Shown: in pieces, positions 37,024 through 64,000 of the stretch
Layout: each line of letters begins with the position of its first letter
Position numbering within the stretch: the stretch's first letter is position 1
DNA from: Lysobacterales bacterium
Lineage (GTDB): Bacteria > Pseudomonadota > Gammaproteobacteria > Xanthomonadales > SZUA-38
Reading direction: 5' to 3'
Assembly (NCBI GenBank): GCA_028285525.1
Contig: JANQOZ010000060.1
Location: forward strand, 1 to 64,000
Length of the DNA stretch: 64,000 nucleotides
Translations under genes and position numbers: made by a program
Notes under the pieces: model-generated
Database searches by the model: none
What the model saw: only the letters and a program-made list of their open reading frames with translations
Told to the model about the DNA's origin: nothing

Positions 37024-37617
37024 TTAGCTTTCGGGAGCTGAGAGGTAGGTGTCCAGCAGGCTCCCGAACTCCTCGCGCAGCCGCTCCCACTCCATCTTGA
37101 ACCAGGGCGTGAAGCGATCCGGGTGCGCCTGCATTTCGGCGTTCAGATCCGCGGGGCTGACGTAGCGCCAGGCCTCGACCTCGTTCTCATTGGCGTGGAC
37201 GTCGCCCGACGCCCGGCCGAGAAACACCGAACACAGCTCGTTTTCTGATCCTTCGGGACCGAAGCGCGCCTGATACTGAAATTTGTAAACAAACTCGAGC
37301 TGACTTTCCATGCCGAGCTCCTGATCGAGGCGGCGATGGATCGCGTCATCCAGCTCTTCACCCTGGCGCGGGTGGCTGCAGCAGCTGTTTGACCAGTAGA
37401 GCGGCCACAGCCGTTTCTGGCCGCTGCGCTGCTGCAGCAGCAGCTCACCTGAGTCGTTGAAGATAAACAGCGAAAACGCCCGGTGCAGGATGCCGTCGCC
37501 GTCATGACACGCCGCTTTGCTCGCAAATCCTTTTGGCTGATCGAAACGATCAACCAGCACAAGCTGCTCTGACTCGGATGAAACGACAGCCCGGCGGGCG
37601 GCAGCAGAACTACCCAA
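37024..37617 (-). CDS. idi: Isopentenyl-diphosphate delta-isomerase, type I
   Basis: 197 residues of the Nudix-fold type I IPP isomerase, interconverting IPP and DMAPP. Landmarks: AFSLFIFNDSGELLLQQRS, the catalytic cysteine and metal histidine in WSNSCCSHP, ELGMESQLEF after the Nudix-like helix, GSENELCSVFLG and NENEVEAWRYVSP. It is the last gene of the run and ends at the terminator. The only start in frame at the N-terminus is TTG at 37617, which sits inside the last codons of the fused HMGR-MVK gene (8-base overlap), implying coupled translation. Confidence 0.93.
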   Translation of the reverse strand: MGSSAAARRAVVSSESEQLVLVDRFDQPKGFASKAACHDGDGILHRAFSLFIFNDSGELLLQQRSGQKRLWPLYWSNSCCSHPRQGEELDDAIHRRLDQELGMESQLEFVYKFQYQARFGPEGSENELCSVFLGRASGDVHANENEVEAWRYVSPADLNAEMQAHPDRFTPWFKMEWERLREEFGSLLDTYLSAPES

Positions 37618-39853: not shown

Positions 39854-40914
39854 CGCGGAGTCGCCCAGGCCTGGTTGGAGCGCATGAGCTCCGCTTTCAG
39901 GGGCAGGCCCCGGGCCAGCATCTTAAAGCCGAACCTCAGCAGCCGGTTGCTCCGCGAACAGAGATTGCTGATCAGTAGGATTCGCCGTACCGAGGCCCGG
40001 GAAATCTTGACCGCGTCACCCGCCCGGTATTCAGGATGCCGACGGATGCTCTGCAGCGTGTGGACCGCCAGCCCGATCGCCCACAGGCAGAAGCGGCGGA
40101 TGCCGGTTTCGCTCGAGGGTATAAGGTGCACATAGCCCAGCGCGTCTCGCAGATAGGCGTGGGCCATGCCCAGGAGATCCTCGATGCCTTTCTCAAACCG
40201 GTTCTGAAACGCCGGGCTGTCGGCGTCAGCCAGATTCAGCCCGTGGCTGTGAAACAGCTCCTGCGGCAGCCAGCAGGCGGCGGCCGCGCGGTCTTCCCAG
40301 AAGTCTTTCAGGATGTTGGTCATCTGCAGGCCCTGCCCGAAGGCGACCGCGAGCGGCATCATGGAGCTGCGGTGGGAGGCGATCGATTCTGAATAGTCGC
40401 AGAACAGTTCGGTCAGCATTTCGCCAACCACCCCGGCGACGACATAACAGTAGCGATCCATGTCGGCGACCGTCGGCAGCCCGGCGATCGATTTCTCCGC
40501 CTGGTACTGGGGCATGCCCTGGCACATGATCTGAATGCAGCGGGTCAGCGCCGCGCGCTGGCGCTCGTTGAAGCTCTGCGTCACCGTGATCACGGTGGGG
40601 GTCTGCTCGATAAGCGTGACCTCATCAGCCAGGGTTTCCGGCGCGAGCAGCGGCGCCAGCTCCCGCGCGAACGGCTCGGCGTCTTCCACGCCTTCGACCA
40701 CTCTGACAAAGCGGTCGTGAAATTCCGCCTTCTGCTCTCGCTGAAGCCGGACGTCGTCCTCGATGGTGTCCGCGATGCGGCACAGGAGGTAGGCGTTTGT
40801 GATGGGTTCGCGCAGGCCATCCGGCAGCTGCGGGATCGTCAGCGCAAACGTTCGCGAGACGCCAGGCAGTAGTCGATCCTGCACGCTCAATGCATTGTTG
40901 AGGTTCAAATTCAT
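39850..40914 (-). CDS. Squalene/phytoene synthase family, probably squalene synthase
   Basis: 354 residues. The two aspartate-rich sites are AYLLCRIADTIEDD and NILKDFWEDRAAAACWLPQE; between them is DRYCYVVAGVVGEMLTELF. The YCYVVAG-VG stretch resembles squalene synthases, including eukaryotic and Methylococcus-type enzymes, more than plant-type phytoene synthases, so the reaction is probably 2 FPP to squalene. Presqualene-PP, dehydrosqualene or phytoene remain possible. The C-terminus has a short hydrophobic/basic part (RLLRFGFKMLARGLPLK). ATG at 40914 is chosen at the start of the conserved region; the open frame extends far upstream but overlaps the phosphomevalonate kinase gene. It sits between mvaK2 and HMGR-MVK. 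Confidence 0.88.
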   Translation of the reverse strand: MNLNLNNALSVQDRLLPGVSRTFALTIPQLPDGLREPITNAYLLCRIADTIEDDVRLQREQKAEFHDRFVRVVEGVEDAEPFARELAPLLAPETLADEVTLIEQTPTVITVTQSFNERQRAALTRCIQIMCQGMPQYQAEKSIAGLPTVADMDRYCYVVAGVVGEMLTELFCDYSESIASHRSSMMPLAVAFGQGLQMTNILKDFWEDRAAAACWLPQELFHSHGLNLADADSPAFQNRFEKGIEDLLGMAHAYLRDALGYVHLIPSSETGIRRFCLWAIGLAVHTLQSIRRHPEYRAGDAVKISRASVRRILLISNLCSRSNRLLRFGFKMLARGLPLKAELMRSNQAWATPR

Positions 40915-40951
40915 GAAACCTAAATCACCATCCCCGATTGAGGCGACCGCA

Positions 40952-42001
40952 TTATCGCAAAACCTCAGCGTTTTTGCCGCTGCCCGCGGCCTGACGCTCC
41001 AGGCCAGCCTCGTCGGCTGCCAAATTCCAGCTGGGAAAACCCTCCGCCTGCGCGGCTTCCCGAAACGCCTGCAGGCGCTCAGCGTCGGCATGCAGGGCAA
41101 TGCCGCAATCACCACCGCCGGCTCCGCTGGTCTTATATAACACGCCAAAGGTGCCAGCCAGCGTCGCCAGCCGCCGGTGCGCGGCGGTCCAGACACTGAG
41201 CTCCGCCTGCTGATCCAGATCGGCCAGTCGCGCGGTAAATTCAGTCGCGCTGGCCAGGAACGCCTCCGCTGAGCCGTCTCGCGCAGCGGAAATGGCGTTT
41301 TTGCAGCTTGCCGAGAGCGCGCGAAGCGCAGCGGCAAAGGTCTCGGGCTGTGACTGTTGAAAACGCTGGAGCTGGTCGAGCCGCGAGCGGGTGTCCGCGC
41401 TGGTGCCCGACCACAGCCACGCTGCGTGAACGGGCAAATTCACCCCAGGCTCGATAAGGCGCGTTTTGCCGGGCGCCGCGAGCTGAAATGAGATGACTCC
41501 GCCGTGCAGGCTCGCGGCAACGTCGATACCGCTGCCGCGCCCCCCCTGAAATCGGTGGTGCACGGCCAGCGCCCGGTCGAGCGTCGTCGCGCCGGCACTT
41601 AGCCGTTCACTCAGGGCGTCGACAAGACAAACACACAGCGCGGCGCTTGATCCAACGCCCAGCTTTTGGCGCAGGCCTGCAGCCTCCGTGCGGGGCGCAA
41701 AAAAGGCTTCGGTGTCCAGGCTGACGGTCTGCCCCAACCCGCGATAATCGATTTGATCCAGGGCCGCGCGCAGCAGCGGCAGGTGCTCGCCCAGTCGCGG
41801 ATCGTCGTGACCCGCAAAGGTCTTAATCTCGTCTGAGAAGCCGGGCGTTGACACTTCCCAACGCTCATCGCTGCGGTTGCGCAGCGTGACGACCGCTCGT
41901 CGCGGGACGGCGGCGACAAGCGCCGGCGCGCCGTAAACTACGGCGTATTCACCCAGCAACACCAGCTTTCCCGGTGCGCTAGCGCTTACCCGGTCGCTCA
42001 A
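40952..42001 (-). CDS. Phosphomevalonate kinase, GHMP family
   Basis: 349 residues. ASAPGKLVLLGEYAVVYGAPALVAAV is the GHMP N-terminus in the phosphomevalonate-kinase form (GEYAV). KLGVGSSAALCVCLVDAL is the phosphate-binding loop. HHRFQGGRGSGIDVAASLHGG and YKTSGAGGGDCGIAL complete the motif set. The ATP-dependent step converts mevalonate-5-phosphate to the diphosphate. Its neighbours (decarboxylase before, fused HMGR-MVK after) make phosphomevalonate kinase the fitting role. Its ATG overlaps the mvaD stop by 4 bases, and 37 bases separate it from the squalene synthase start. Confidence 0.9.
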   Translation of the reverse strand: MSDRVSASAPGKLVLLGEYAVVYGAPALVAAVPRRAVVTLRNRSDERWEVSTPGFSDEIKTFAGHDDPRLGEHLPLLRAALDQIDYRGLGQTVSLDTEAFFAPRTEAAGLRQKLGVGSSAALCVCLVDALSERLSAGATTLDRALAVHHRFQGGRGSGIDVAASLHGGVISFQLAAPGKTRLIEPGVNLPVHAAWLWSGTSADTRSRLDQLQRFQQSQPETFAAALRALSASCKNAISAARDGSAEAFLASATEFTARLADLDQQAELSVWTAAHRRLATLAGTFGVLYKTSGAGGGDCGIALHADAERLQAFREAAQAEGFPSWNLAADEAGLERQAAGSGKNAEVLR

Positions 42002-42951
42002 GCCGGCACCAGGTGAGCACCCCGTCCAAGGCCGACGCGGTGCAGCTCGACAACGCCTGGAAGCTCTCGAAGTGCGGCGGCAACGTCATCAGCGGACTCC
42101 GGGAGACAGATGACTTTGACCTGAGGGCCCGCATCCATCGTGCAGAACGCCGCCAGACCATCGCGTCGGAGCTCGCGCACCCGTTGGATGGCCGCCAGAC
42201 TGGCGGGCTTCATATAAAGGAGGCCGGGCCGGCTGGAGATCATCACCGCGTGCATCGCCAGAAAGCTTGCCTCGCTCACGGCCGCAAGCGCCGCAAAATC
42301 GCGCTGCTCGATCGCCGCGCGGGCCGTCTCCAGATCCGCCGCAACACACTCGGTCCAGGCCTGATAGAGCGGTGAGGTTTTTCGCGATCGTTCCATGCCC
42401 TCACCGGAAGAAGTTTCCTTAGGCCCGGATTGGGTTACCGCAATGACCACCTCCAGCGGCCACTGCGCTGCGTCCAGCAGTGGTGCAGCGACGGTGCTGT
42501 TGCTGTCCGTCCCGAGATCGAGCCTCACGAAGCCGCCAAAAATCGAGCGTGCCGCAGATCCAGACCCGCGGCGGGCCAGAACCGACAGCTGCGCGTCGCT
42601 CATGCCGAGCTCCAGCAGGGCGTCCACCGCTACCGCCAGGGCGGCAAAGCCGGAGGCTGAAGAGGCCAGCCCGGCGGCGGTTGGAAAGTTGTTCCGGGTG
42701 TCGATGTGCAACGGTGGACGTTGGGTCAGGCAGGCATCCAGCCATCGAAATACCCGGTCTGCCTGACCGCCTCCCGGTTCGCCGTTCAGCAGCAGCTGGT
42801 CGCTGGCCGCTTCCTCAACCGTGGTTTCGGTGGTGAAGGTGTCGAGCGTCACCGACAGCGAACCGGCGGACGGCAGGTTGGTGGCGAGGTCGGATTTCCC
42901 CCAATACTTGATCAGCGCAATATTGGGGTGGGCGCGTGCGCAGATCTGCAT
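41998..42951 (-). CDS. mvaD: Diphosphomevalonate decarboxylase
   Basis: 317 residues. AHPNIALIKYWGKSDLATNLPSAGSLSVTL is the unmistakable decarboxylase N-terminus (here quoted in part: NIALIKYWGK). NFPTAAGLASSASGFAALA is the phosphate loop, RRGSGSAARSIFGGFV carries the catalytic arginine/serine region, and DAGPQVKVICL is near the end. It converts diphosphomevalonate to IPP with ATP. A TACAAT lies 7 bases before the ATG, too close for a normal leader. The 40-base gap to the ABC permease holds no clear terminator, so the isoprenoid genes may be transcribed with the transporter genes upstream. Confidence 0.94.
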   Translation of the reverse strand: MQICARAHPNIALIKYWGKSDLATNLPSAGSLSVTLDTFTTETTVEEAASDQLLLNGEPGGGQADRVFRWLDACLTQRPPLHIDTRNNFPTAAGLASSASGFAALAVAVDALLELGMSDAQLSVLARRGSGSAARSIFGGFVRLDLGTDSNSTVAAPLLDAAQWPLEVVIAVTQSGPKETSSGEGMERSRKTSPLYQAWTECVAADLETARAAIEQRDFAALAAVSEASFLAMHAVMISSRPGLLYMKPASLAAIQRVRELRRDGLAAFCTMDAGPQVKVICLPESADDVAAALRELPGVVELHRVGLGRGAHLVPA

Positions 42952-43757: not shown

Positions 43758-44513
43758 TCACGGCCGGGAGGCCATGGTGCGCGTCGCCCGGCTCGCCAGC
43801 AGCTGCCCCGGCACGAGCCAGGCCACAGCCAGCAGCAGGGCGACCAGAACGGGAAGGCTCGATGGCAATTCGTTGAGCTGACCCTCTGCCGGCAGCACCG
43901 CGCTCTTCAGCAACGTAAGCCCAGGGGTCAGCGGGTGAAGCCACAGCCAGGGGCTGCTCCAGATGCCCACCAGATCGAGGGCTGGCACGAGCAGAAACAG
44001 AAAGGCCAGGGACGAGGGCATCAGAAAATCGCTCAAGCCCCGGTAACGCTGCACCATGATGAGGCCGAGCTGACACAGAAGACAGGTCAGCAGCACTGCG
44101 CTGACGAGCAGCATCAGCAGGTCCATACGCCAGACGGGGACCGTGACCAGCAGTCCCTCGCCGATCGCCAGCAGGGACAGGACCAGCGCGCGTGCGATAA
44201 CCCACTCGGCGGGCTGCAGCGGCGTGAGAAACTGCGCCGCCAGGGTGCCCTCGGACTTCTGCAGCAGCACCAGGGCTGCGGCGAAAAAGAAGCCGTTGAA
44301 GATAAAAATCTCCAGCAGCACCAGGCTGATGATCCAGTCCTGCAGCACCGAGCCCATCCACCAGAGCAGCGCCAGGTGCACGACGCTGACAAAGGCCGCC
44401 GCCCAAAAAAAGCCGTTGCGCCAGGCGAGCAGCAGATCGCAGCGCGCGCTGGCCAGCAGGCGACGCGCCAGTCCCTCCCCGGGCTCGGCCGGTGTCAGCA
44501 GGGCGTCAGACAA
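43758..44513 (-). CDS. ABC transporter permease, first of pair
   Basis: 251 residues, six predicted helices (AAAFVSVVHLALLWWMG, WIISLVLLEIFIFNGFFFAAAL, LLMLLVSAVLLTCLLC, LMPSSLAFLFLLVPALDLVG, LPVLVALLLAVAWLV). LLQKSEGTLAAQFLTPLQPAEWVIARAL is the ABC-2 type coupling loop. The start is TTG at 44513, inside the end of the ATPase gene (8-base overlap), so the two are translationally coupled. It is distinct in sequence from the second permease, consistent with a heteromeric membrane domain. Confidence 0.8.
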   Translation of the reverse strand: MSDALLTPAEPGEGLARRLLASARCDLLLAWRNGFFWAAAFVSVVHLALLWWMGSVLQDWIISLVLLEIFIFNGFFFAAALVLLQKSEGTLAAQFLTPLQPAEWVIARALVLSLLAIGEGLLVTVPVWRMDLLMLLVSAVLLTCLLCQLGLIMVQRYRGLSDFLMPSSLAFLFLLVPALDLVGIWSSPWLWLHPLTPGLTLLKSAVLPAEGQLNELPSSLPVLVALLLAVAWLVPGQLLASRATRTMASRP

Positions 44514-53278: not shown

Positions 53279-55249
53279 ATGTCCAACAGCACTGCAGTCA
53301 AGTCTCCCGCGAAGGCAACCGCCGCCGCCGAAGGCCCAGTCGAGAAGGAAAAAATCCCTGACCAGGCCGCCAGCAACGACGGCGAGGACGCGCTGGCCAA
53401 ACTGCTGGTCGCCGACGGCGTTATCACGCAGAAAGATCTGGAAAAAGGTCAGCGTGTCGTCGCCAAGCTGGGCCGCGAGTCCACCGTCCTGGCGGTGCTC
53501 AAGCAGATGGGTGTCGTTCAGGAGGAGCAGATCTGCGAGGTCTGCAAGAACCATCGGTTCGAACTGCCGCTGGGTGATCTCCTCATGGAGATGGGGTACA
53601 TCTCGCGCGCAGAACTGCGCGTTGCGCTGAAGCTGCAGAAGTCTTCGTCCAAGGGCGAAAAGCTCGGCGAGATCCTGGTCAAGAAACGTGTGATCAAGGA
53701 AAAGGACCTGGCCCGGATTCTGGCCAGCCAGGTCGGCATGGACTTTGTCGAGCTGAACGTGTCCGACTGCGACGACAGCTGGGTGGAAAAAATCTCGGCG
53801 GAAAAAGCGATTCAGCATGGACTGTTTCCGATCAAAGAGGTCGACGACACGCTGCTGGTCGCGTTCTCCGATCCGCTGAGCGAATCGGCCCAGACGGTTG
53901 CCGGTCAGCTGTTCCAGCATCCGATCCTGCCGGCGGTGACCACCCAGAGCGCAATTCGCAACGCGGCCGCGGCGCTGGGCCGTCGGCGCAGCCGCCAGGC
54001 GGTGATGGCCGACGACATCGACAAGTCCAGCCCGCAGGGGCTGGTCAACTCCATGATTCAGTCGGCGGTGGCCCGCGGCGCCAGCGACCTGCACATCGAA
54101 CCGCTCAAGGAGCGCGTCCGGGTGCGATTTCGCATCGATGGCGTGCTGCGCGAGCACGCCGACTTTGGCCACGACAAGCTCCCGGCGGTCGTTTCCCGGC
54201 TGAAGGTGCTGGCTGAAGCGGATATCTCCGAGCGCCGCCGCCACCAGGACGGCAGGATTCTGTTCGAAGACCCCAAGTCGGGCGCGGTGTTCGACATGCG
54301 CGCGTCGTTCTACGTGACCGTCCACGGCGAAGCCGTTGTGCTGCGGGTGTTGAACAACAACAACACGGTGCTGGACATGTCGCAGCTCGGCATGTCGCCC
54401 GCGATGCAGGAGCGGTTCAAGTATCAGGGTCTGGACACGCCGAGCGGCGTCATCATCGTGACCGGACCCACCGGGTCAGGCAAAACGACCACGCTCTACA
54501 GCTGCGTCAATCATCTGAACAACGAAACCACCAGCATCATCACCGCCGAGGATCCGGTGGAATATGTGGTCGACGGGATCTCTCAGTGTTCGCTCAACAA
54601 CAAGCTCGGGCTGACGTTTGAGGAATCCCTGCGCCACATGGTGCGCCAGGATCCGGACGTGATCGTGCTCGGGGAGATTCGGGATGCGTTTTCGGCCGAA
54701 AGCGCGATCCAGGCTGCGCTGACGGGCCACAAGGTGCTCACCACCTTTCACACCGAAGACAGCATCGGCGGCCTGCTGCGGCTGCTGAATATGGATATCG
54801 AGGCGTTCCTTATTTCATCCACGGTGGTTTGTGTGGTGGCCCAGCGCCTGATCCGCCGGATCTGCCCGGATTGCTCGACGCCGGCGGAGCCTGAGTCGCG
54901 GGATTTGCAGCTGATCGGCTGGTCGGCCAAAGACGCCCAGGGCGGCGACTTCAGCGTAGGCGCCGGCTGCGAATCGTGTCACTACACCGGCTATCGGGGA
55001 CGGGTCGCCGTGTTCGAGATCCTGGTGCTGACCGAGGCCGTGCGCGACGCCATCATCGCGCGCCGGACTTCGGCGCAGATTCGCCAGATCAGCGTGGAGA
55101 CCTCCGGGCTGGTCACGCTGCTCGAAGACGGGCTGGAAAAGGCCGCGCGCGGATTAACAACGCTTGAGGAGGTGCGCCGGACGCTACCGCGACTCAGCTC
55201 ACCTCGACCCCTTATGGAACTAAGAAGACTGACAGGAAATTTGCAATGA
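53279..55249 (+). CDS. GspE/PilB-family secretion ATPase with MshEN domains
   Basis: 656 residues. An Ala/Lys-rich N-terminus precedes two MshEN-type helical modules (about 40-150); the stretch from LGDLLMEMGYIS to GEKLGEIL resembles the cyclic-di-GMP binding motif, although the arginine before the first LG is proline here. The ATPase core has GPTGSGKTTTLYS (Walker A), VIVLGEIRD (Walker B), TFHTEDS and the zinc-type pairs ICPDC and CESC. These ATPases drive type II secretion or type IV pili. No other secretion or pilus gene is in the window, so it is an orphan locally. Its stop overlaps the first HDOD gene (ATGA). Confidence 0.9.
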   Translation: MSNSTAVKSPAKATAAAEGPVEKEKIPDQAASNDGEDALAKLLVADGVITQKDLEKGQRVVAKLGRESTVLAVLKQMGVVQEEQICEVCKNHRFELPLGDLLMEMGYISRAELRVALKLQKSSSKGEKLGEILVKKRVIKEKDLARILASQVGMDFVELNVSDCDDSWVEKISAEKAIQHGLFPIKEVDDTLLVAFSDPLSESAQTVAGQLFQHPILPAVTTQSAIRNAAAALGRRRSRQAVMADDIDKSSPQGLVNSMIQSAVARGASDLHIEPLKERVRVRFRIDGVLREHADFGHDKLPAVVSRLKVLAEADISERRRHQDGRILFEDPKSGAVFDMRASFYVTVHGEAVVLRVLNNNNTVLDMSQLGMSPAMQERFKYQGLDTPSGVIIVTGPTGSGKTTTLYSCVNHLNNETTSIITAEDPVEYVVDGISQCSLNNKLGLTFEESLRHMVRQDPDVIVLGEIRDAFSAESAIQAALTGHKVLTTFHTEDSIGGLLRLLNMDIEAFLISSTVVCVVAQRLIRRICPDCSTPAEPESRDLQLIGWSAKDAQGGDFSVGAGCESCHYTGYRGRVAVFEILVLTEAVRDAIIARRTSAQIRQISVETSGLVTLLEDGLEKAARGLTTLEEVRRTLPRLSSPRPLMELRRLTGNLQ

Positions 55250-56100
55250 CCCAGGCCGCTTCCCTCGTAGACATGATCAACACCAAGCTCGCTTCGGGAG
55301 AAGTTGAGCTGCCGGTGTTCGACGATGTTGCCGTCAAGGTATATCGGGCCGTCCGCAAGGACGACCTGAGCGCCGACCAGATATGCCAGCTGATGGAGGA
55401 GGACCCGGTGCTCGTCGCCGAGGCCTTGCGAACCGCTAACTCGTCGTTTTTCTCGGGCCTGGGTGCGGTCACAACCCTGCGGGAGGCGATGGTGCGGGTT
55501 GGCGCCAAACAGGTAGCTGCGCTGGCGCTGGCGGCCGCGCAGAAGCGGCTTTACAGCCAGTCGAACGGCGTCTTCAAATCGCGCCTCCAAACGCTCTGGG
55601 CCCACACCTGCGCCGTCGCCATGGGTTCGCGCTGGGTCGCTCGCAAGGCCGGCTACCTCAACCTCGCTGACGAGGCTTACGTCGGCGGTCTGCTGCACGA
55701 CGTCGGCAAGGTGTCGCTCCTGGCCATTATCGAAAGCCTGGTCGACGACAAAAGCGCCGGCGTCGAAATCTCTGAGCACGTGGTCGACGTCACGCTCAAG
55801 CAACTTTACCCCGAGCACGGCGCCAAGCTGCTGGAACTGTGGAACCTGCCCGAGACCTTCCAGGACGTGGTTGCCCAGCAGGAGTCTACGGCCTTCGACG
55901 AAGGCAACGTGGTGCTCAGCATCGTCAGGCTGGTGGACAAGGCCTGCGCGAAAGAGGGCATCAGCGACTACCCGGATCCCAGCATCAGCCTCGAGACCAC
56001 CCGTGAGGCCCAGGTGCTTAACGTCAACGACATTGTGCTGGCCGAACTCCAGATTGTCGTGGAGGACGCCGGCAGCGAGGCCAGGAAGGAGGCAGCGTGA
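55246..56100 (+). CDS. HDOD domain protein (first)
   Basis: 284 residues. The HDOD core reads ICQLMEEDPVLVAEALRTAN then VTTLREAMVRVGAKQV and YVGGLLHDVGKVSLLAII, in which HD is retained. HDOD proteins are usually non-catalytic scaffolds in two-component and cyclic-di-GMP signalling and in type IV pilus control. It lies between the secretion ATPase and a second HDOD protein with 4-base or smaller overlaps on both sides, so coexpression is very likely and a partner role in the same assembly is plausible. Confidence 0.87.
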   Translation: MTQAASLVDMINTKLASGEVELPVFDDVAVKVYRAVRKDDLSADQICQLMEEDPVLVAEALRTANSSFFSGLGAVTTLREAMVRVGAKQVAALALAAAQKRLYSQSNGVFKSRLQTLWAHTCAVAMGSRWVARKAGYLNLADEAYVGGLLHDVGKVSLLAIIESLVDDKSAGVEISEHVVDVTLKQLYPEHGAKLLELWNLPETFQDVVAQQESTAFDEGNVVLSIVRLVDKACAKEGISDYPDPSISLETTREAQVLNVNDIVLAELQIVVEDAGSEARKEAA

Positions 56101-56969
56101 TGCTCGAAGCAGCCCAAGCAACCGAACCGCCGGCGGGACCCCCACCGGAATTTTTTGAGGACCTGTCCGCGGCGATCACCGCGGAAATCGAATCGGGGGA
56201 GCTGGAGCTGCCGCTGCTGCCGACCTCGGCGATGCAGGTCTTTCACCTCGCCAGCGATGCCGACGCGGATATCGGTAAGGTCGCGGGCATGATCGAGACC
56301 GATCAAAAGCTCGCCACCGGCGTGCTCCGCGTCGCCAACTCCGTAGCGTACAGCCCCCGCCAGGAGATCGTGACGCTGCGTCAGGCCATCATGCGCCTGG
56401 GGCTGAAGTCCCTCTGCGAAATTGTGCTGGGGGCCGCCTTTAAGGCAACGGTGTTTTCCGACGACCGCTACATGGAGCCGATGGAACGCTACTGGCGCAC
56501 CGGCATCGGCGCGGCCCTGTGGGCCAAGGAGCTGGCGCGGCTGCGGCGGAAGAATGTCGAGACCGCCTACCTGTGCGGCATGCTTCACAACGTCGGGCAG
56601 CCGATGACGCTGAAAATCATCTCCGGCATGGAGGACGCCCCCCCGTTTGACGACGCGCTCAGCGAGGTGATCGGACGCCACGCAACGCAGGTGGGCGGCA
56701 TCCTGGCCGATCGCTGGCAGCTGCCGGAGGTGGTCAAGACGTGCATCACCTACCACGATAATTTTGAGGCGGCTGAAAACTACCGCGACGAGGCTTGTGC
56801 GGTCCGCGCGGCGGTGGAGCTGCTGAACAGCTCCAGCGAAGAGGACGAAGATCCCGCGGCGCTGCTGATGTCTCAGCCGTGCTTCCAAGAGCTCAATATC
56901 TATCCTGATGATCTGGCCGGCCTCCTCGGACAGCGGTCCCGGCTGGCGCTTGCCCTGGAGTCGTTCTAA
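56100..56969 (+). CDS. HDOD domain protein (second)
   Basis: 289 residues. It parallels the preceding protein: AGMIETDQKLATGVLRVANS, IVTLRQAIMRLGLKSLCEIV, and YLCGMLHNVGQPMTLKI where HD is replaced by HN, so hydrolase activity is not expected. GGAGG lies 7 bases before the ATG at 56100; a GTG at 56097 is the alternative start. The two HDOD genes probably arose by tandem duplication followed by divergence. The stop is in TAATG shared with sthA. Confidence 0.86.
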   Translation: MLEAAQATEPPAGPPPEFFEDLSAAITAEIESGELELPLLPTSAMQVFHLASDADADIGKVAGMIETDQKLATGVLRVANSVAYSPRQEIVTLRQAIMRLGLKSLCEIVLGAAFKATVFSDDRYMEPMERYWRTGIGAALWAKELARLRRKNVETAYLCGMLHNVGQPMTLKIISGMEDAPPFDDALSEVIGRHATQVGGILADRWQLPEVVKTCITYHDNFEAAENYRDEACAVRAAVELLNSSSEEDEDPAALLMSQPCFQELNIYPDDLAGLLGQRSRLALALESF

Positions 56970-58393
56970 TGATTGATCAGCCGTACGATTTTGTCATCAT
57001 AGGATCCGGCCCCGCCGGACAGAAAGCCGCCATTCAGGCGTCCAAAAAAGGTTGCCGTGTCGCCCTGATCGAGCGCGACCGGCAGGTCGGCGGAAGCTGT
57101 GTTTATCGAGGCACAATTCCCAGCAAGACGCTGCGAGAAAACGCGCTGCAGCTGGCCCGGGCCAGTCAGTGCCAGCAGGCGGTGACCGTACAGGTCGAAC
57201 AGCATGCGCCGATGAACCATCTGATGTCTCGGCTGCAGCAGGTGCTCGACAGCCACGACTATCTCATCGCCGATCAGTTGGGCCGTAACGGCATCACCTG
57301 CATCCACGGCCGGGCGACATTCAAAAACCCGCACGAGGTTGAGGTGACCCGGGTCGACGGAACCAGCGACACCCTGAGCGGCAAGCACGTGGTGATCGCC
57401 ACCGGCTCCAGACCGAGGGCTCCTGACGACATCCCGGTTGATCACGAATACATCCTCGACAGCGATTCGGTCCTGTCGATGTGCTACCTGCCGGAGTCCA
57501 TGCTGGTCCTGGGCAGCGGCGTGATCGCGTGTGAATACGCGTCTATCTTTGCGCTCCTTGGAGTGAAGGTCACCATGGTCGACCGCTTCGCGAGCCCGCT
57601 CGGATTCCTCGACCCGGATCTGTCGAAGCGGTTTCAGGAATCCTTCGAGGCGTTTGGTGGTCGCTTTGTGGGCAACGCCAAAATCAGCGACATCTACTGG
57701 GACGGCGCGTGCGAGGTGGTCGCGAGGATGGACAACGGTCTGCAGCTGAGCGCCGAGAAGGCCCTGTTTGCGCTCGGCAGGATGGCCAACGTAGATTCGC
57801 TGGGACTGGAAGCGGCCGGCCTTGAGGTGAATCAGTACGGCATCCTCGACGCCGACGAAAACTGTCAGACCAAAGTGCCTCATATCTACGCGGTCGGGGA
57901 CGTGATCGGCGCTCCGGCCCTGGCCTCGAGCTCCATGGCCCAGGGGCGGCGCGCGGTTCGTCACGCGCTCGGACTGCCGCCCGGCGCCCCGGCGCACACC
58001 ATCCCCTCAGGGATCTACACGATTCCTGAGATCGCGAGCGTCGGGCTGACCGAACTTCAGGCCCGCAAAGAATACGGGTCCGTGAAGGTTGCCAAGGTGG
58101 ATTTTGCCGAGGTGGCCCGCGGGCAGATCGCCGGAATCCAGGATGGGCTCCTCAAAATGGTGTCAGATCCGGAAGGGAAGTATCTGCTCGGCTGTCAGAT
58201 TGTCGGTGAGGGGGCAACCGAGCTGATCCACCTGGCGCAGATGGCGCTAGTGTCTCATCAGCCGGTCGATATTTTCGTGGAGAACATCTTCAATTTCCCG
58301 ACCTTGGCCGAGGCCTACCGGATCGGCGCGCTGGCGGTGATCGCTCAGCGCAGCGCCGCCAACGACGAATCGTCGCTGGCCGCCGTCGTTTAG
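56969..58393 (+). CDS. sthA: Soluble pyridine nucleotide transhydrogenase
   Basis: 474 residues. The N-terminus DFVIIGSGPAGQKAAIQASK is an FAD-binding fold, and GGSCVYRGTIPSKTLRE has a single cysteine in place of the CxxxxC disulfide of lipoamide dehydrogenase, which is the mark of SthA. Later stretches are IVIGSGV-like LVLGSGVIACEYASIFALLG, IYAVGDVIGAPALASSS and NIFNFPTLAEAYRIGAL. The enzyme exchanges hydride between NADPH and NADH. Its placement as the last gene of a secretion-ATPase/HDOD chain is odd. A hairpin at 58415-58437 follows. Confidence 0.92.
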   Translation: MIDQPYDFVIIGSGPAGQKAAIQASKKGCRVALIERDRQVGGSCVYRGTIPSKTLRENALQLARASQCQQAVTVQVEQHAPMNHLMSRLQQVLDSHDYLIADQLGRNGITCIHGRATFKNPHEVEVTRVDGTSDTLSGKHVVIATGSRPRAPDDIPVDHEYILDSDSVLSMCYLPESMLVLGSGVIACEYASIFALLGVKVTMVDRFASPLGFLDPDLSKRFQESFEAFGGRFVGNAKISDIYWDGACEVVARMDNGLQLSAEKALFALGRMANVDSLGLEAAGLEVNQYGILDADENCQTKVPHIYAVGDVIGAPALASSSMAQGRRAVRHALGLPPGAPAHTIPSGIYTIPEIASVGLTELQARKEYGSVKVAKVDFAEVARGQIAGIQDGLLKMVSDPEGKYLLGCQIVGEGATELIHLAQMALVSHQPVDIFVENIFNFPTLAEAYRIGALAVIAQRSAANDESSLAAVV

Positions 58394-58414
58394 CGATCCC
58401 TGGGCGGGCAGCAG

Positions 58415-58437
58415 CCGCGGCTTCGGAAGCCGCGGCA
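58415..58437. terminator. Hairpin after sthA
   Basis: Perfect 11-bp inverted repeat GCCGCGGCTTC / GAAGCCGCGGC with a one-base centre, which would fold with a TTCGG-type loop. There is no T-tract; it probably marks the transcript end. Confidence 0.4.
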
Positions 58438-58441
58438 CGCG

Positions 58442-58470
58442 TTGAAATTTGCGGCCGGCGCCACAATACT
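58442..58470 (+). promoter_or_regulatory. Promoter of the ferredoxin gene
   Basis: TTGAAA (-35, 58442-58447), a 17-base spacer and AATACT (-10, 58465-58470) give a predicted start near 58477, 26 bases before the ATG at 58503. Confidence 0.5.
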
Positions 58471-58502
58471 TGCGCGTTGGATCAACGCCAATCGGGAAGC
58501 CA

Positions 58503-58826
58503 ATGCCAAAAATTACCTATGTTGCCCACGACGGAACGCGCACCGAGCAAGACGTGCCGGTGGGCTGGAGCGTCATGGAAGGGGCCGTACAGAACAACAT
58601 TGACGGCATTGACGCCGACTGTGGCGGCTGCCTCAGCTGCGCAACCTGTCATGTGTTTGTTGATCCGGCCTGGGTCTCCAAGCTGCCGCCTAAGGAGGAT
58701 CTCGAGGACGACATGCTGGACTGTGCTGCGGTCGATCGCGAGGACAACAGCCGCCTGAGTTGTCAGCTGACGGTGACCGAAGAGATGGACGGTCTGGTGG
58801 TTACCTTGCCCGAGTTCCAGAGCTGA
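58503..58826 (+). CDS. [2Fe-2S] ferredoxin, adrenodoxin-like
   Basis: 107 residues. ITYVAHDGTRTEQDVPVGWS leads to the cluster site DCGGCLSCATCHVFV and the fourth cysteine in RLSCQLTV, the pattern of vertebrate-type (adrenodoxin/putidaredoxin) ferredoxins that serve cytochrome P450s and hydroxylases. No P450 or matching reductase is adjacent; the nitroreductase gene follows after 37 bases. ATG at 58503 is chosen; an upstream frame to 58449 would extend into the promoter. Confidence 0.9.
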   Translation: MPKITYVAHDGTRTEQDVPVGWSVMEGAVQNNIDGIDADCGGCLSCATCHVFVDPAWVSKLPPKEDLEDDMLDCAAVDREDNSRLSCQLTVTEEMDGLVVTLPEFQS

Positions 58827-58863
58827 GCCGGCCGCGGCTCACGCCAAGACACTGGAACCCACG

Positions 58864-59424
58864 GTGACCGATGAACTGCAGCGCTTCGGCGAGCTGCTCA
58901 GCAGCCGCCGGACCGTTAATTTTTTTGAGCCCAGGCCCGTTGATCACCAGCTGATCCACGAAGCGGTTGAGGTGGCCCGGTGGGCGCCTAACCACCGTCT
59001 GACCCAGCCCTGGAAGTTCTTCCACCTAGGACCCGAGACCCGATCGACCGTCATCGACCTGGCGGTGGAGCTGGCGGTGAAGGCTAAGGGTGAAGCCGCG
59101 GGGGCGGCGAGGCGGGAGCGTCTGGAGGCGGTGCCTGAGTGGCTGGCGGTGGCGAGCCGAATTTCCGAAGACACGCTGCTGGATATGGAAGACTACGCCG
59201 CCACCTGCTGTGCGGTGCAGAACCTGATGCTGTATCTGCACACCGCTGGTGTCGGAACCAAATGGACCAGCGGCGCCGTCACGCGGGAGCCCGCGACACT
59301 TCATGCGCTCGGCCTGAAACCCGACGAATATCGGGTCACCGGGCTGATCTGGATCGGCTACGCAAAGCAACGGACCGAATCGAACCGGGGGCCGCTGAGC
59401 GAGGTCTTTTCTCAGCTGGCCTGA
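58864..59424 (+). CDS. Nitroreductase family protein
   Basis: 186 residues. The FMN-binding nitroreductase fold is shown by LSSRRTVNFFEPRPVD, ARWAPNHRLTQPWKFFHLG, CCAVQNLMLYLHTAGVGTKW and VTGLIWIGYAK. It reduces nitro compounds, quinones or a physiological substrate with NAD(P)H. The start is GTG at 58864; no better start exists. It follows the ferredoxin gene on the same strand. Confidence 0.88.
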   Translation: MTDELQRFGELLSSRRTVNFFEPRPVDHQLIHEAVEVARWAPNHRLTQPWKFFHLGPETRSTVIDLAVELAVKAKGEAAGAARRERLEAVPEWLAVASRISEDTLLDMEDYAATCCAVQNLMLYLHTAGVGTKWTSGAVTREPATLHALGLKPDEYRVTGLIWIGYAKQRTESNRGPLSEVFSQLA

Positions 59425-59491
59425 CCTGGCTGTCGCAGACGGCTCACCGTCACCCACTCAAAGCCTCGGAGCGCGAGCGCGCGAGTTCACT

Positions 59492-60289
59492 ATGACCCAC
59501 ACCATTGTGTTTGGAAATGAAAAGGGCGGGACTGGCAAGTCCACCCTGGCCATGCACGTGGTGGTGCAGCTTCTGCGACAGGGGAATTCGGTAGGCGTCA
59601 TCGATCTCGACAGCCGCCAGCGCTCCGTAACCCGCTTTCTGGAAAATCGCCAGGCTTATGCTGAGGGTCACGACATCGAGCTGCCGCAGCCGGCGTGGCT
59701 CGCACCGCTTGCCTCAAAGCGCCGCGACGCACAGGCTGACGCCGACGCCGAAGAGCAGGCCAACCTGCAGCAGGCGCTCGAGCAGCTGAAGCCCGTTGCT
59801 GATTTTCTTGTGATCGACTGCCCCGGCGGCCACACGCATTATGCGCAGCTGGCCCACGCGCTCGCCGACACCCTGGTGACGCCGCTGAACGATAGTTTTG
59901 TCGATCTCGACCTCCTCGGTCAGGTCTCCGCTGATACCTTTGAGGTGACACGCCTGAGCCACTACGCGGAGATGGTCTGGCAGAGCCGCAAGTTTCGCTC
60001 GGCCAGCGAGCTCCCGCCCATGGACTGGATCGTCACCCCGAACCGCGTCGGCCAGCTCAACTCGCGCAACAACGAGCGGGTTGAGGGGGTGCTCAGCGCG
60101 CTTCGCAAGCGCCTGATGTTCCGTTTTGAGCGCGGACTGTCCGAGCGCGTGATCTACCGGGAGCTTTTTGTCAGCGGGCTGACGCTGATGGACCTGGCGG
60201 AGATCCCCGGCGAAGGGCTGACCCGGCTTTCGCACCTGGCTGCACGCGAGGAGGTCCGGCGCCTGGTCGACCGGCTCAGACTGTCGTGA
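59492..60289 (+). CDS. MipZ-like ParA-family ATPase
   Basis: 265 residues. The deviant Walker A is GNEKGGTGKSTLAMH, followed by VIDLDSRQRSVTRFLENR, DFLVIDCPGG, VTPLNDSFVDLDLLG, MDWIVTPNRVG and ERVIYRELFVSGLTLMDL. The combination of DLDxRQR, NDSFVDxDxLG and RVIYRELF-GLTL is the pattern of MipZ, the ATPase that positions FtsZ by forming a polar gradient through ParB in Caulobacter. Other ParA-type ATPases lack these stretches. No parB or ftsZ is in the window. Its stop overlaps the GTG of the MFS gene. Confidence 0.85.
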   Translation: MTHTIVFGNEKGGTGKSTLAMHVVVQLLRQGNSVGVIDLDSRQRSVTRFLENRQAYAEGHDIELPQPAWLAPLASKRRDAQADADAEEQANLQQALEQLKPVADFLVIDCPGGHTHYAQLAHALADTLVTPLNDSFVDLDLLGQVSADTFEVTRLSHYAEMVWQSRKFRSASELPPMDWIVTPNRVGQLNSRNNERVEGVLSALRKRLMFRFERGLSERVIYRELFVSGLTLMDLAEIPGEGLTRLSHLAAREEVRRLVDRLRLS

Positions 60290-61506
60290 ACGCCGTCACC
60301 GCCGAAGTTCTCGACAGCAACCAGCAATCCCTTCGCAATCTGAAGATTTACATGAGCGCCCAGGTGCTGGATCTGCACGGGCTGTGGATCCACCGGGTCG
60401 CGCTCGGCTGGGTGACCTGGGTGGAAACCGAGTCGGAGTTCTGGGTGGGCATGATCGCTTTTGCCCAGTTCTTTCCCGTCATCTTTCTCGGGCCGCTCTT
60501 CGGCGTGCTGGCTGACCGTCTGGACCGGCGCTACTGCGCCATTGTGCTGAATCTCTCGCTCACGGCGGTTGCCACCGTGATGGCGGCGGCGAGCTTTGCC
60601 GGCTTGCTCGACATCTGGGTCATCCTGGCGCTATCGCTGCTGCAGGGTATCGCTGCGGGCGCCTATTCGCCGATTCGCATGTCGCTGGTGGCCAACCTGC
60701 TGGCCATGGAACACCTCGCGCGGGGCATTGCCATCAACAGCCTGGCGTTTAACGCCTCGCGGTTTCTCGGCCCGATGTTTGCCGGCCTGATCATCGTGAC
60801 CTGGAACGTTTCCTGGGCGTTTGTCATCAACGCCGCCAGCTATTTTTTTATGCTTCTCGCCCTGGTTGCGGTGCGGCCACTGACGCGCCGCAAGGCTGAC
60901 GGTGAGCGTCGCGAGGTGCTCGACGAACTGCTGGAAGGGCTGCGCTACGTGCTGGACAACGATCTCATTCGATCGATGCTCTATCTGGCGATCACGGTCT
61001 CGGTCTTCGGTCGTGGCGTGATTGAGCTGCTGCCTGCGTTTGCGGACGGCGTTTTCGGTCGCGGCGCGACGGGCCTCGCCTGGCTGACCTCCGCCAGCGG
61101 CGCCGGAGCGATCGTGGCGGGTCTGTGGCTGGCACGCCGGGGGCGCCGTCCGCTGCACATCATCGCGCCGCTGTCGGCCTTGTTGTCGGGGCTGGTTGTG
61201 ATCGCCTTTGCGCTGAATCGGTCGTTCGAGGTGGGGCTGCTGCTGGCGGCCTGCCTGGGGTTTTTTTTCTCCACCTTCGGCATCTCGGTTCAGAGCCTGC
61301 TGCAGACGCGCGTGGACGACGCTTTTCGGGGCCGCGTCAGCAGCTTCTGGGGCGTCTTCGGCGTGGGCGGCTCGGCGCTCGGCGCATTTTTGCTGGGCGC
61401 CATGGCCCCCCAGGTCGGGCTCGGTGTCGTCAGCATCGTGTCCGGCGTGCTGTGTATCGTCCTGTGCTACCCGGTGTCCACCGCGGTGCTGCGACGAATT
61501 CGCTGA
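60286..61506 (+). CDS. MFS transporter, EntS-like (MFS_3) family
   Basis: 406 residues with about twelve membrane helices. The stretches GLWIHRVALGWVTWVETES, FGVLADRLDRRYCAIVLN (motif A) and AYSPIRMSLVANLLAMEHLARGIAINSLAFN match the MFS_3/EntS-like exporter family. GTG at 60286 overlaps the MipZ-like stop (GTGA), so the two are coupled in translation although a functional link is not obvious. The substrate is unknown. Confidence 0.87.
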   Translation: MNAVTAEVLDSNQQSLRNLKIYMSAQVLDLHGLWIHRVALGWVTWVETESEFWVGMIAFAQFFPVIFLGPLFGVLADRLDRRYCAIVLNLSLTAVATVMAAASFAGLLDIWVILALSLLQGIAAGAYSPIRMSLVANLLAMEHLARGIAINSLAFNASRFLGPMFAGLIIVTWNVSWAFVINAASYFFMLLALVAVRPLTRRKADGERREVLDELLEGLRYVLDNDLIRSMLYLAITVSVFGRGVIELLPAFADGVFGRGATGLAWLTSASGAGAIVAGLWLARRGRRPLHIIAPLSALLSGLVVIAFALNRSFEVGLLLAACLGFFFSTFGISVQSLLQTRVDDAFRGRVSSFWGVFGVGGSALGAFLLGAMAPQVGLGVVSIVSGVLCIVLCYPVSTAVLRRIR

Positions 61507-61569
61507 GCAGATCAGCTAAGATGGCCCGCTGTCCGAACCGCAATCGGCTTTACTTTTCCTGGAGGAACT

Positions 61570-62283
61570 ATGCCTGTTGAACAGACCCTGGATGTCGCCG
61601 CCGGCGACATCACCATGAAGATGTTTGTCTGCGCTCCCGAGTCAGACGGTCCGGCACCTGCGGTGCTGGTCAGCCACGCCTGGGGCGGACAAACCGAATT
61701 CGAAAAAAACAAGGCGCGCCAGGTGGCTCAGCTTGGCTACGTCGGCGTTGCGATGGACCTTTACGGCGACGCCAGAACCGGCGGCAGCACCGAAGAAAAC
61801 TCCGCGCTGATGCAGCCGCTGCTGGAAAACCGGGCTGAACTGCAGGCACGTTTGCACGCTTCGCTGGCGGCGACCGCGGCGCTTGAGAGCGTCGATGCAG
61901 CGAAGGTCGGGGCTATGGGGTACTGCTTTGGCGGCCTGTGCGCGCTGGATCTTGCGCGGAGCGGCGCCGCCGTCAAGGGCGTGATTTCGCTGCACGGCCT
62001 GTTTGTGCCGGCCGACAACCTGGACAATCCCCAGATCTCCGCCAAGGTGCTCGCCCTGCACGGCTGGGACGACCCGATGGTCAAGCCCGATCAGGTCCTG
62101 GCCCTGGCCGAGGAGATGAACGCGGCCGGCGCGGACTGGCAGCTTCATGCGTACGGCGGCACGATGCACGCCTTTACGAACCCTGAAGCCAACGATCCGG
62201 ACTTTGGAACGGTCTACAGCCCGAGCGCGGACCGTCGCGCGTGGCAGACCACGCGCGATTTTTTCACTGAGATTTTCGAGTAG
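61570..62283 (+). CDS. Dienelactone hydrolase family protein
   Basis: 237 residues of alpha/beta hydrolase fold. The nucleophile is the cysteine in GAMGYCFGGLCALD, with aspartate in ALHGWDDPMVKP and histidine in GTMHAFTNP, the Cys-Asp-His triad of dienelactone hydrolases. It may hydrolyse dienelactones or other esters. GGAGG sits 6 bases before the ATG. Twenty bases separate its stop from that of the convergent ligase. Confidence 0.9.
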   Translation: MPVEQTLDVAAGDITMKMFVCAPESDGPAPAVLVSHAWGGQTEFEKNKARQVAQLGYVGVAMDLYGDARTGGSTEENSALMQPLLENRAELQARLHASLAATAALESVDAAKVGAMGYCFGGLCALDLARSGAAVKGVISLHGLFVPADNLDNPQISAKVLALHGWDDPMVKPDQVLALAEEMNAAGADWQLHAYGGTMHAFTNPEANDPDFGTVYSPSADRRAWQTTRDFFTEIFE

Positions 62284-62303
62284 GCCTCAGCGGGAGCGCC
62301 GTC

Positions 62304-63935
62304 TCAGCTCGGATTGTCGAGCAGGTAATTCTGGTATTCGGCCCGCAGGGGCTTTTTGTCGATTTTGCCGGTGGCCGTCAGCGGAATGCTGTCCACCGGC
62401 AGGATGGCGTCCGGCAGCTGCCAGCGGGCAAACTGCTCCGCGAGCAGCGTCAGGATGGAGCCAGCGTCCAGGTTTTTCCCTTCCGCCATCTGCACCAGCA
62501 GCACCGGTCTCTCGTCCCACTTGGGGTGCGTTGCGCCGATGCACGCCGCGAGCGCGACGTCCGGATGGGCAATCGCGGCGTTCTCAAGGTCCGCTGAGCT
62601 GATCCATTCGCCGCCCGACTTGATCACATCCTTGGCGCGATCGGTGATGTTCATGAAGCCGTATTCGTCAATCGTGGCGATGTCGCCGGTATCGAACCAG
62701 CCGTTCTCATCAAGAGCACTTTCCGTCTCACCGTAGTAACGCTCGACAATCCACGGCCCGCGAACGAGCAGTCGGCCGAACGTCTGTCCATCGTGGGGCA
62801 GGGTGTTGTGGTCGTCGTCGACAATTTCCATGTCGACGCCAAACGGTACGCGGCCCTGCTTGCAGCTCAGGTCATACGCTTCGTCCGGGCCGGCCGGCAG
62901 CGGCATCGATCCACTGACGCGATTGACCGTGCCGAGCGGGCTCATCTCGGTCATGCCCCAGGCGTGCAGCACGGCGACGTCGAACTCCTTATCAAAGGCT
63001 TCGATCATCGAGCGTGGGGCCGCGGAACCGCCGATGACCACCTCCTTTAAGTCCGGCAGGCTGCCGCCGGTGCTCCGCAGGTGATCGAGCAGCATCGACC
63101 AGACCGTGGGAACGGCGGCGGCGAAGTTACACCGTTCGTCGTTCAGCATCGCCGCCATCGATGCGCCGTCCATGTGGGGTCCGGGCATGACCATGCGGGC
63201 GCCGACCATCGGCAGGCCGAATGCCAGGCCCCAGGAGTTGGCGTGGAACATGGGAACCACCATCATGACCCGATCTGCGCTGCCGACGTTCATCGCGTCT
63301 TTGCTGGTGGCGCCGTAGGCGTGAAGGACGTTGCTGATGTGGGAGTACAAAACGCCTTTGGGATTACCCGTTGTGCCCGAGGTGTAGCACAGCGAGGACG
63401 CATCATCGCCGTCCACCTGCTCCCACTCACACGACTGCGCCCGTCCCTCAAGCAGCGACTCATAACAGTGCCAGTTGTCCGGCAGATCGTCCGGCATGTG
63501 TTCAGGCCCCGTCATCACGATCACGTGCTTCAGGGTCGGCAGCTTGTCCGCCAGCGCCTGGATCAGCGGTACGAAGGTCAGGTCAACCAGAATGATCTGA
63601 TCCTCCGCGTGGTTGACGATATAGATCAGCTGTTCCGGGAACAGGCGAGGGTTCAGCGTGTGGGCAACCGCGCCGCGCCCCATGATGGCAAACCAGCTTT
63701 CCAGATGACGATAGGTGTTCCAGGCCATCGTGCCGATACGGTCACCCTTTTTGACGCCAAGTTCCGCCAGCGCGTTGCCGAGCTGGGCGGTCCGCTGCCA
63801 GGTTTCCCGGTAGGTCTGCCGATGCATACCCCCTTCGACGGTGTTGGAAACCACCTCCTGGTTTCCGTGCCAGCGCGATGCGTGCTCCAGCAAAGACACC
63901 AGATTGATCGACGAAGACTGCATTAATCCGCGCAT
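62304..63935 (-). CDS. Fatty acid-CoA ligase (AMP-forming)
   Basis: 543 residues of the ANL adenylate-forming family. Signatures are LCYTSGTTGNPKGVLYSH (P-loop-like A3), HAWGMTEMSP, GWFDTGDIATID, KSGGEWISSADLEN and the catalytic lysine in TATGKIDKKPLR. The sequence resembles medium/long-chain acyl-CoA ligases. It activates a fatty acid with ATP and CoA; chain length is not predictable. ATG at 63935 has GGGGTAGCG upstream; the frame to 63998 lacks conservation and is not used. Confidence 0.9.
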   Translation of the reverse strand: MRGLMQSSSINLVSLLEHASRWHGNQEVVSNTVEGGMHRQTYRETWQRTAQLGNALAELGVKKGDRIGTMAWNTYRHLESWFAIMGRGAVAHTLNPRLFPEQLIYIVNHAEDQIILVDLTFVPLIQALADKLPTLKHVIVMTGPEHMPDDLPDNWHCYESLLEGRAQSCEWEQVDGDDASSLCYTSGTTGNPKGVLYSHISNVLHAYGATSKDAMNVGSADRVMMVVPMFHANSWGLAFGLPMVGARMVMPGPHMDGASMAAMLNDERCNFAAAVPTVWSMLLDHLRSTGGSLPDLKEVVIGGSAAPRSMIEAFDKEFDVAVLHAWGMTEMSPLGTVNRVSGSMPLPAGPDEAYDLSCKQGRVPFGVDMEIVDDDHNTLPHDGQTFGRLLVRGPWIVERYYGETESALDENGWFDTGDIATIDEYGFMNITDRAKDVIKSGGEWISSADLENAAIAHPDVALAACIGATHPKWDERPVLLVQMAEGKNLDAGSILTLLAEQFARWQLPDAILPVDSIPLTATGKIDKKPLRAEYQNYLLDNPS

Positions 63936-64000
63936 GACGCTACCCCTTGGCGAAGAAAGACTGCGCGCAAGTTTGGCTTCGGCGCGCTTGCTCTGCAACC

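Follow-up and report, generated by a model that had tools for sequence, protein, structure and literature searches.

What does a gene reading as mipZ encode in a member of the Gammaproteobacteria, can it work there as it does in Caulobacter crescentus, and where did it come from? MipZ is portrayed as the means by which alphaproteobacteria cope with the lack of a Min system (PMC3910319, PMC3937727), and the present gene lies in a Lysobacterales genome, within the 64,000 nucleotides analyzed here (the window). A preliminary description had recognized a MipZ-type ATPase in surroundings that looked gammaproteobacterial and had set three explanations side by side: acquisition of the gene, a wrong placement of the lineage, or a MipZ distribution broader than usually stated. 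The gene and the stretches discussed below are the following.

59492-60289, + strand: mipZ, an open reading frame of 265 amino acids (P0001) with an ATG start and a full-length PF09140 match
59516-59545, + strand: deviant Walker A motif NEKGGTGKST, residues 9-18, kept in 20/20 gammaproteobacterial and 122/122 alphaproteobacterial sequences
59603-59623, + strand: DLDSRQR, residues 38-44, in which D40 corresponds to Caulobacter D42 and is kept in 142/142 sequences
59888-59920, + strand: NDSFVDLDLLG, residues 133-143, a MipZ-type stretch by motif comparison
60020-60046, + strand: MDWIVTPNR, residues 177-185, with D178, W179 and R185 among the conserved columns
60065-60079, + strand: R192 to R196, corresponding to Caulobacter R194 to R198 in the alignment
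60146-60196, + strand: RVIYRELFVSGLTLMDL, residues 219-235, in which R219 corresponds to Caulobacter R221 and is kept in 142/142 sequences

This open reading frame encodes a genuine, full-length MipZ, which is neither a MinD nor a ParA. Indeed, PF09140 matches residues 3-265 over profile positions 1-261 of 262 at 339 bits (cut-off 20.7, E 1.8e-101), and the four stretches previously pointed out, all present in order in this one frame, belong to that match and are not chance short matches. The MinD profile TIGR01968 gives 30.6 bits, below its cut-off of 212.9, and the ParA partition profile NF041546 gives 71.3 bits, below a cut-off of 180 that is weak by itself, the chromosomal ParA of the same genome also falling short of it (120.6 versus 180). 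As PF09140 weakly matches MinD and ParA proteins (up to 56 bits, with some match in 368 of the 369 genomes of our class sample), a MipZ call needs the score, which is 317-372 bits for true MipZ, and not the mere match. The best PDB matches by sequence are three Caulobacter MipZ entries, 2xj4, 2xit and 2xj9 (E 2e-65, for 2xj4, to 2.6e-64), the first match beyond Caulobacter MipZ reaching only 2.6e-5, and the identity with Caulobacter MipZ is 46% over 263 alignment columns. A structure predicted by AlphaFold2 with nine gammaproteobacterial sequences as input (mean pLDDT 83, pTM 0.85) superimposes on the Caulobacter MipZ structures with Z scores of 33.7, 32.8 and 31.8 and 48% identity (for 2xj4, Z 33.7 and rmsd 1.9 across 257 residues), versus at most 22.7 for ParF, Soj and MinD (ParF next best at 22.7, MinD 20.1). 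In the phylogeny with ParA, a branch with 100/100 support splits the MipZ sequences, the window protein included, from four ParA rows, which places it away from unrelated ParA proteins.

Motifs and residues were compared across 142 MipZ sequences (20 gammaproteobacterial and 122 alphaproteobacterial, the MinD sequences L119 and L124 being left out; two duplicate pairs were dropped, and some unnamed alphaproteobacterial genomes may still repeat named ones). Fifty columns are conserved in at least 97% of them; the motif NDSF[VIL]D[LF]D is present in 19/20 gammaproteobacterial and 113/122 alphaproteobacterial sequences and the stretch R[VI]xY[RK]E[LM]FxxG[LM]T in 20/20 and 74/122, DLDxRQR being less diagnostic with only 7/20 and 26/122. 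In Caulobacter, mutants of K13, G14, K18 and D42 define the monomeric and dimer-locked states, and exchange of D42 impairs ATP hydrolysis, as described in part of PMC3355305. All four residues are kept in 142/142 sequences and correspond to K11, G12, K16 and D40 of the window protein. Regarding DNA binding, passages of PMC7229837 list nine residues in Caulobacter MipZ, report R194 and R198 as essential for binding by the MipZ dimer and state that loss of R194, R198 or R221 leaves hardly any binding. The window protein has R192, R196 and R219 at these three positions in the alignment, where arginine is found in 12/20, 19/20 and 20/20 gammaproteobacterial sequences, respectively. It also keeps L237 and L248 of the Caulobacter set; the weaker Caulobacter DNA-binding residues R196, K197, R219 and R242 are not kept, and they vary in alphaproteobacteria too.

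ParB, the presumed partner of MipZ, is encoded elsewhere in the genome. None of the eight genes tested around mipZ (55246-63998) encodes a ParB; on contig C56, however, the host carries rsmG-parA-parB (locus L172), with parB directly after parA and its product scoring 196 bits against TIGR00180 (cut-off 58.45). Some 22 kb from it, C56 also carries the cluster dnaA-dnaN-recF-gyrB (L202), rsmG and dnaN being our presumptive names from reading of the sequence. Two exact parS sites (TGTTNCACGTGNAACA) are located inside recF, 618 bases apart (C56:43619-43634 and 44237-44252), and no exact site was found in the other 208 of the 209 loci searched; allowing up to two mismatches gave no site around parAB or in the window. 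The parts of the Caulobacter mechanism other than FtsZ are thus present in this host, with ParB sites at the origin.

Searching 41 genomes for MinC, MinD and MinE (20 MipZ-bearing Gammaproteobacteria, 13 related ones lacking MipZ and 8 named MipZ-bearing Alphaproteobacteria) revealed none of the three over cut-off in the host genome, nor in G381, G371, G390 and G377, and altogether 17/20 MipZ-bearing Gammaproteobacteria are without all three. Two others, Granulosicoccaceae sp. 1_MG-2023 I2M11 (G145) and SH-MAG129 (G567), have MipZ plus all three Min proteins, and G233 has MinC only, neither MinE nor a MinD over cut-off being found, perhaps because its Min system is decaying or because its 520-contig assembly has a gap. 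Among the 13 relatives lacking MipZ, 8 have all three Min proteins and 5 have none, and 0/8 named alphaproteobacteria have MinC, MinD or MinE. By itself, absence of Min is unremarkable, since MinE was found in just 153/369 genomes of the class sample (absent from 216, a search for so short a protein possibly missing some) and in 90/200 genomes of the host order (absent from 110). MinE occurs in 1/10 MipZ genomes versus 152/359 others (one-sided Fisher p 0.036, relatedness ignored), and within the host order it is absent from 5/5 MipZ carriers and also from 105/195 non-carriers. We therefore do not claim mutual exclusion of MipZ and Min as a rule, Min being often absent without MipZ and three of 20 carriers keeping Min genes. 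The earlier statement that MipZ replaces MinCD, which for alphaproteobacteria agrees with the available text of PMC3910319 (MipZ found where MinCD is absent), is hence borne out by the gene content of the host and fails as a generalization in G145 and SH-MAG129, where MinCDE is kept. As a separate observation, families f186, f188 and f189 of the host order include near-complete genomes for which neither MinE nor MipZ is listed.

How would such a protein position the septum? If the Caulobacter mechanism, in which ParB capture, ATP-dependent dimerization, spreading on DNA and FtsZ inhibition are described (available parts of PMC7229837, PMC3355305, PMC3910319 and PMC7022226), carries over by homology, ParB-parS complexes close to the origin would collect MipZ monomers, which would form ATP dimers there, and these dimers would attach nonspecifically to the adjoining nucleoid DNA. 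By inhibiting FtsZ assembly, they would keep FtsZ at its minimum in the vicinity of the origins, and the Z-ring would be expected to arise where MipZ is least, away from them. MipZ would thereby take on, in this host, the work of MinCDE in other Gammaproteobacteria. We consider it likely that the host has a working, Caulobacter-like MipZ in place of MinCDE, derived from a single entry from a Kordiimonadales/Emcibacterales-like alphaproteobacterium; its binding to ParB and to FtsZ, the gradient, the replacement of Min and the direction of transfer are predicted by homology, gene content and distribution.

The main functional rival to a polar gradient is that MipZ acts on division together with ParB by supporting the assembly and stability of the Z-ring and not its place, as described for Rhodobacter sphaeroides in part of PMC7022226. 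An auxiliary role of this kind would fit G145 and G567, with their full MinCDE beside MipZ; for the host and 16/19 other MipZ-bearing Gammaproteobacteria, which lack MinC, MinD and MinE, it would however call for another positioning cue, and we regard it as unlikely.

Turning from function to origin, MipZ (at least 317 bits, the next best protein reaching 56 bits) was found in 10/369 genomes of the class sample and, in the order sample, in 5/200 genomes, namely all four of the host family and one of another family. Together, these samples place it in at least nine gammaproteobacterial families; among 142 genomes of an alphaproteobacterial sample, 67 carry it. The named gammaproteobacterial carriers among the best 80 of 527 loci include at least three Cycloclasticus loci, Granulosicoccaceae and at least three unclassified gammaproteobacterial MAGs. 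In literature searched mostly at the title and abstract level, where an earlier mention may have escaped, no report of MipZ in Gammaproteobacteria was found, nor anything on MipZ in Cycloclasticus. The host protein is thus a well-supported new member of the MipZ family in a class for which the searched literature yielded no report, and the suggestion of a broader distribution is supported, in the form of one gammaproteobacterial clade.

This clade was recovered in a careful tree of 94 of the 142 MipZ sequences, in which the alphaproteobacterial rows were thinned (support given as bootstrap/SH-aLRT). All 20 gammaproteobacterial sequences form it with 98/86 support, versus a weak 21 in a quick tree of the same rows, and the five MipZ of the host order group together within the tree (100/89). 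The clade joins Kordiimonas NAT158, Emcibacter Tobar13m-G8 and UBA4441 at 100/94, and other Kordiimonadales, Iodidimonas and Rhodothalassium join next at 96/88. An earlier tree had been drawn from 63 of 123 alpha-labelled rows plus Caulobacter, including the two MinD sequences (L119 and L124) dropped later. In a ParA-rooted tree (55 of the 142 MipZ sequences and 4 ParA), the gammaproteobacterial sequences lie inside the alphaproteobacterial ones, and an AU test does not reject the alphaproteobacteria as a separate clade (p 0.507). In the same tree, G390, from the host family, groups with G377, from another family (99/90), which means either that the gene moved between these families or that they are close.

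The neighborhood of mipZ bears on the same question, and in the host it consists of the following genes.

56969-59424, + strand: pyridine nucleotide-disulphide oxidoreductase, 2Fe-2S ferredoxin and nitroreductase, upstream of mipZ and of unrelated metabolism
60286-61506, + strand: MFS_3 transporter, starting with a GTG inside the last 4 bases of mipZ (GTGA)

The gene begins 67 bases past the end of the nitroreductase gene, and the same upstream order is found in G381. On account of the 4-base overlap, the transporter is probably translated together with mipZ, an arrangement that another genome of the genus repeats (L160), and we do not think that it belongs to the MipZ mechanism. Gammaproteobacterial mipZ neighborhoods are common to close relatives only; in G377, mipZ is divergent beside a gene that we take to be mnmG (L163:8927-11871), a gene often located near the replication origin. 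Around alphaproteobacterial mipZ, the neighbors presumably encode, from reading of their sequences, a DnaJ-like protein, PanC, a glucosaminidase-like protein and a phosphomannomutase. By tblastn, at least one of these lies within 4 kb of mipZ at 36/73 alphaproteobacterial loci (those treated as such among the best 80 of 527, the titles of L062 and L084 saying only Proteobacteria) and at 0/20 gammaproteobacterial loci, 17 of which extend more than 1.5 kb from mipZ in each direction. The three nearest alphaproteobacterial loci (L038, L049 and L051) retain the usual alphaproteobacterial gene order.

The absence of alphaproteobacterial neighbors at all 20 gammaproteobacterial loci, along with neighborhoods limited to close relatives, supports the transfer of a single gene from Alphaproteobacteria to Gammaproteobacteria. 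Of the three explanations first put forward, acquisition is supported alongside the broader distribution, also by the place of the clade beside Kordiimonadales/Emcibacterales-like sequences: most likely, mipZ of the host was acquired from an alphaproteobacterium, and most likely the gene entered Gammaproteobacteria once, from a Kordiimonadales/Emcibacterales-like donor, and was then inherited and possibly passed between lineages. Its direction rests on distribution and synteny, because the outgroup rooting is not decisive. A different history, which concerns origin and not function, would have MipZ present in the common ancestor of both classes and lost in most Gammaproteobacteria; a single gammaproteobacterial clade and the alpha-gamma split left standing by the AU test are consistent with it. 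Against such an ancestry stand the disparity in frequency between the two class samples, the 195/200 genomes of the host order without MipZ, and the closeness of the gammaproteobacterial sequences to three alphaproteobacteria that keep a gene order seen at none of the 20 gammaproteobacterial loci. Kordiimonadales and Emcibacterales are, moreover, not known to be early branches of Alphaproteobacteria. We hence find an ancestral MipZ quite unlikely and retain a single acquisition.

ATPases of the ParA/MinD type serve many cargoes, according to part of PMC7229837, and one might ask whether a MipZ-derived protein lying amid unrelated genes, with no division gene adjoining, has been re-used for pili, flagella or chemoreceptors without inhibiting FtsZ. 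This is very unlikely given that the 50 conserved columns are shared by gammaproteobacterial and alphaproteobacterial sequences and include the MipZ-type C-terminal region, and that no candidate cargo gene is common to the mipZ neighborhoods of the different lineages.

The remaining explanation, a wrong lineage placement, does not hold. By genome kinship, the host is in the same class as Granulosicoccaceae sp. 1_MG-2023 I2M11, a named isolate with its own mipZ (JAUOPI010000008.1, 126276-127061); its class is therefore Gammaproteobacteria, in line with the first impression of the surroundings, and an alphaproteobacterial host is ruled out. The 16S rRNA evidence agrees, less decisively. A covariance search found the gene in 2/20 genomes, the host not among them, and the 16S of G012 used as a probe recovered a 361-base host fragment at a contig end. 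Compared with a plasmid collection, this fragment is nearest to Legionella (88.3%), followed by Methylomagnum (86.2%) and Halomonas (85.0%), the best alphaproteobacterium being Tistrella (84.5%); by itself, it is no more than suggestive of Gammaproteobacteria. Neither of the outcomes named in advance as refuting, a place among unrelated ParA proteins or an alphaproteobacterial 16S rRNA gene, was thus encountered. The host genome (6.23 Mb, 98% complete, the window being on contig C62) is assembled in 125 contigs with 2.09% contamination, yet the binning of an alphaproteobacterial contig into it is rejected as extremely improbable, given the gene order repeated in L160, the presence of MipZ in 4/4 genomes of the family, a GC content of 63.9% versus 63.3% in the window with a base composition equal to that of the origin contig, the position of the window MipZ inside the gammaproteobacterial clade and a carrier (L029) that is a named strain.

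Other genes of the window deserve mention in their own right. Two tandem HDOD-domain proteins with overlapping ends (55246-56969, + strand) are preceded by a 656-amino-acid protein that reads like a GspE/PilB-type ATPase (53279-55249), and a 767-amino-acid protein at 9632-11935 (+ strand) has an N-terminal TIR domain, with no further Pfam match at E 1e-10. The window of this gammaproteobacterium also contains mevalonate-pathway genes (37610-42951, - strand).

37610-39853, - strand: HMG-CoA reductase fused to GHMP kinase, mevalonate-pathway set
39850-41337, - strand: squalene/phytoene synthase, mevalonate-pathway set
41998-42951, - strand: diphosphomevalonate decarboxylase, mevalonate-pathway set

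Taken together, these data suggest that the host lineage exchanged one complete mechanism of division positioning for another. A MipZ clade that spans at least nine gammaproteobacterial families, most of its carriers having no MinCDE, would make the tool for choosing the division site exchangeable between classes, even though MipZ has to suit the ParB and FtsZ of each host. In a wider proposal, to which we give an even chance, the MipZ-ParB logic moved once from Alphaproteobacteria to Gammaproteobacteria and displaced MinCDE in several separate families, the Granulosicoccaceae with both systems being an intermediate; if true, the carriers are natural replacement experiments. Two questions thereby become testable: which features of a new host a spatial regulator depends on after horizontal acquisition and, in I2M11 with its two systems, whether a takeover by MipZ can precede the loss of Min. 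For Min-lacking Gammaproteobacteria this is a partial answer, most such genomes in our sample being also without MipZ.

Compared with known systems, the window protein is closest to Caulobacter crescentus MipZ, with which it shares full-length homology, fold, ATPase residues and the three strongest DNA-binding residues, and like Caulobacter the host has parA-parB and parS and lacks MinCDE. It differs from it by its gammaproteobacterial host, by the lack of a panC/dnaJ-like neighborhood and by the four weaker DNA-binding residues. The Kordiimonadales/Emcibacterales-like MipZ (L038, L049 and L051) are its nearest sequences outside Gammaproteobacteria, but they stand in the conserved alphaproteobacterial gene order. 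MinD is, like MipZ, an ATPase of the ParA/MinD superfamily devoted to division-site choice, and the window protein attains only 30.6 of the 212.9 bits that its profile demands. ParA/Soj and ParF belong to the same superfamily and share the P-loop and the ATP-dimer logic, and the host has its own parA, located with parB on C56.
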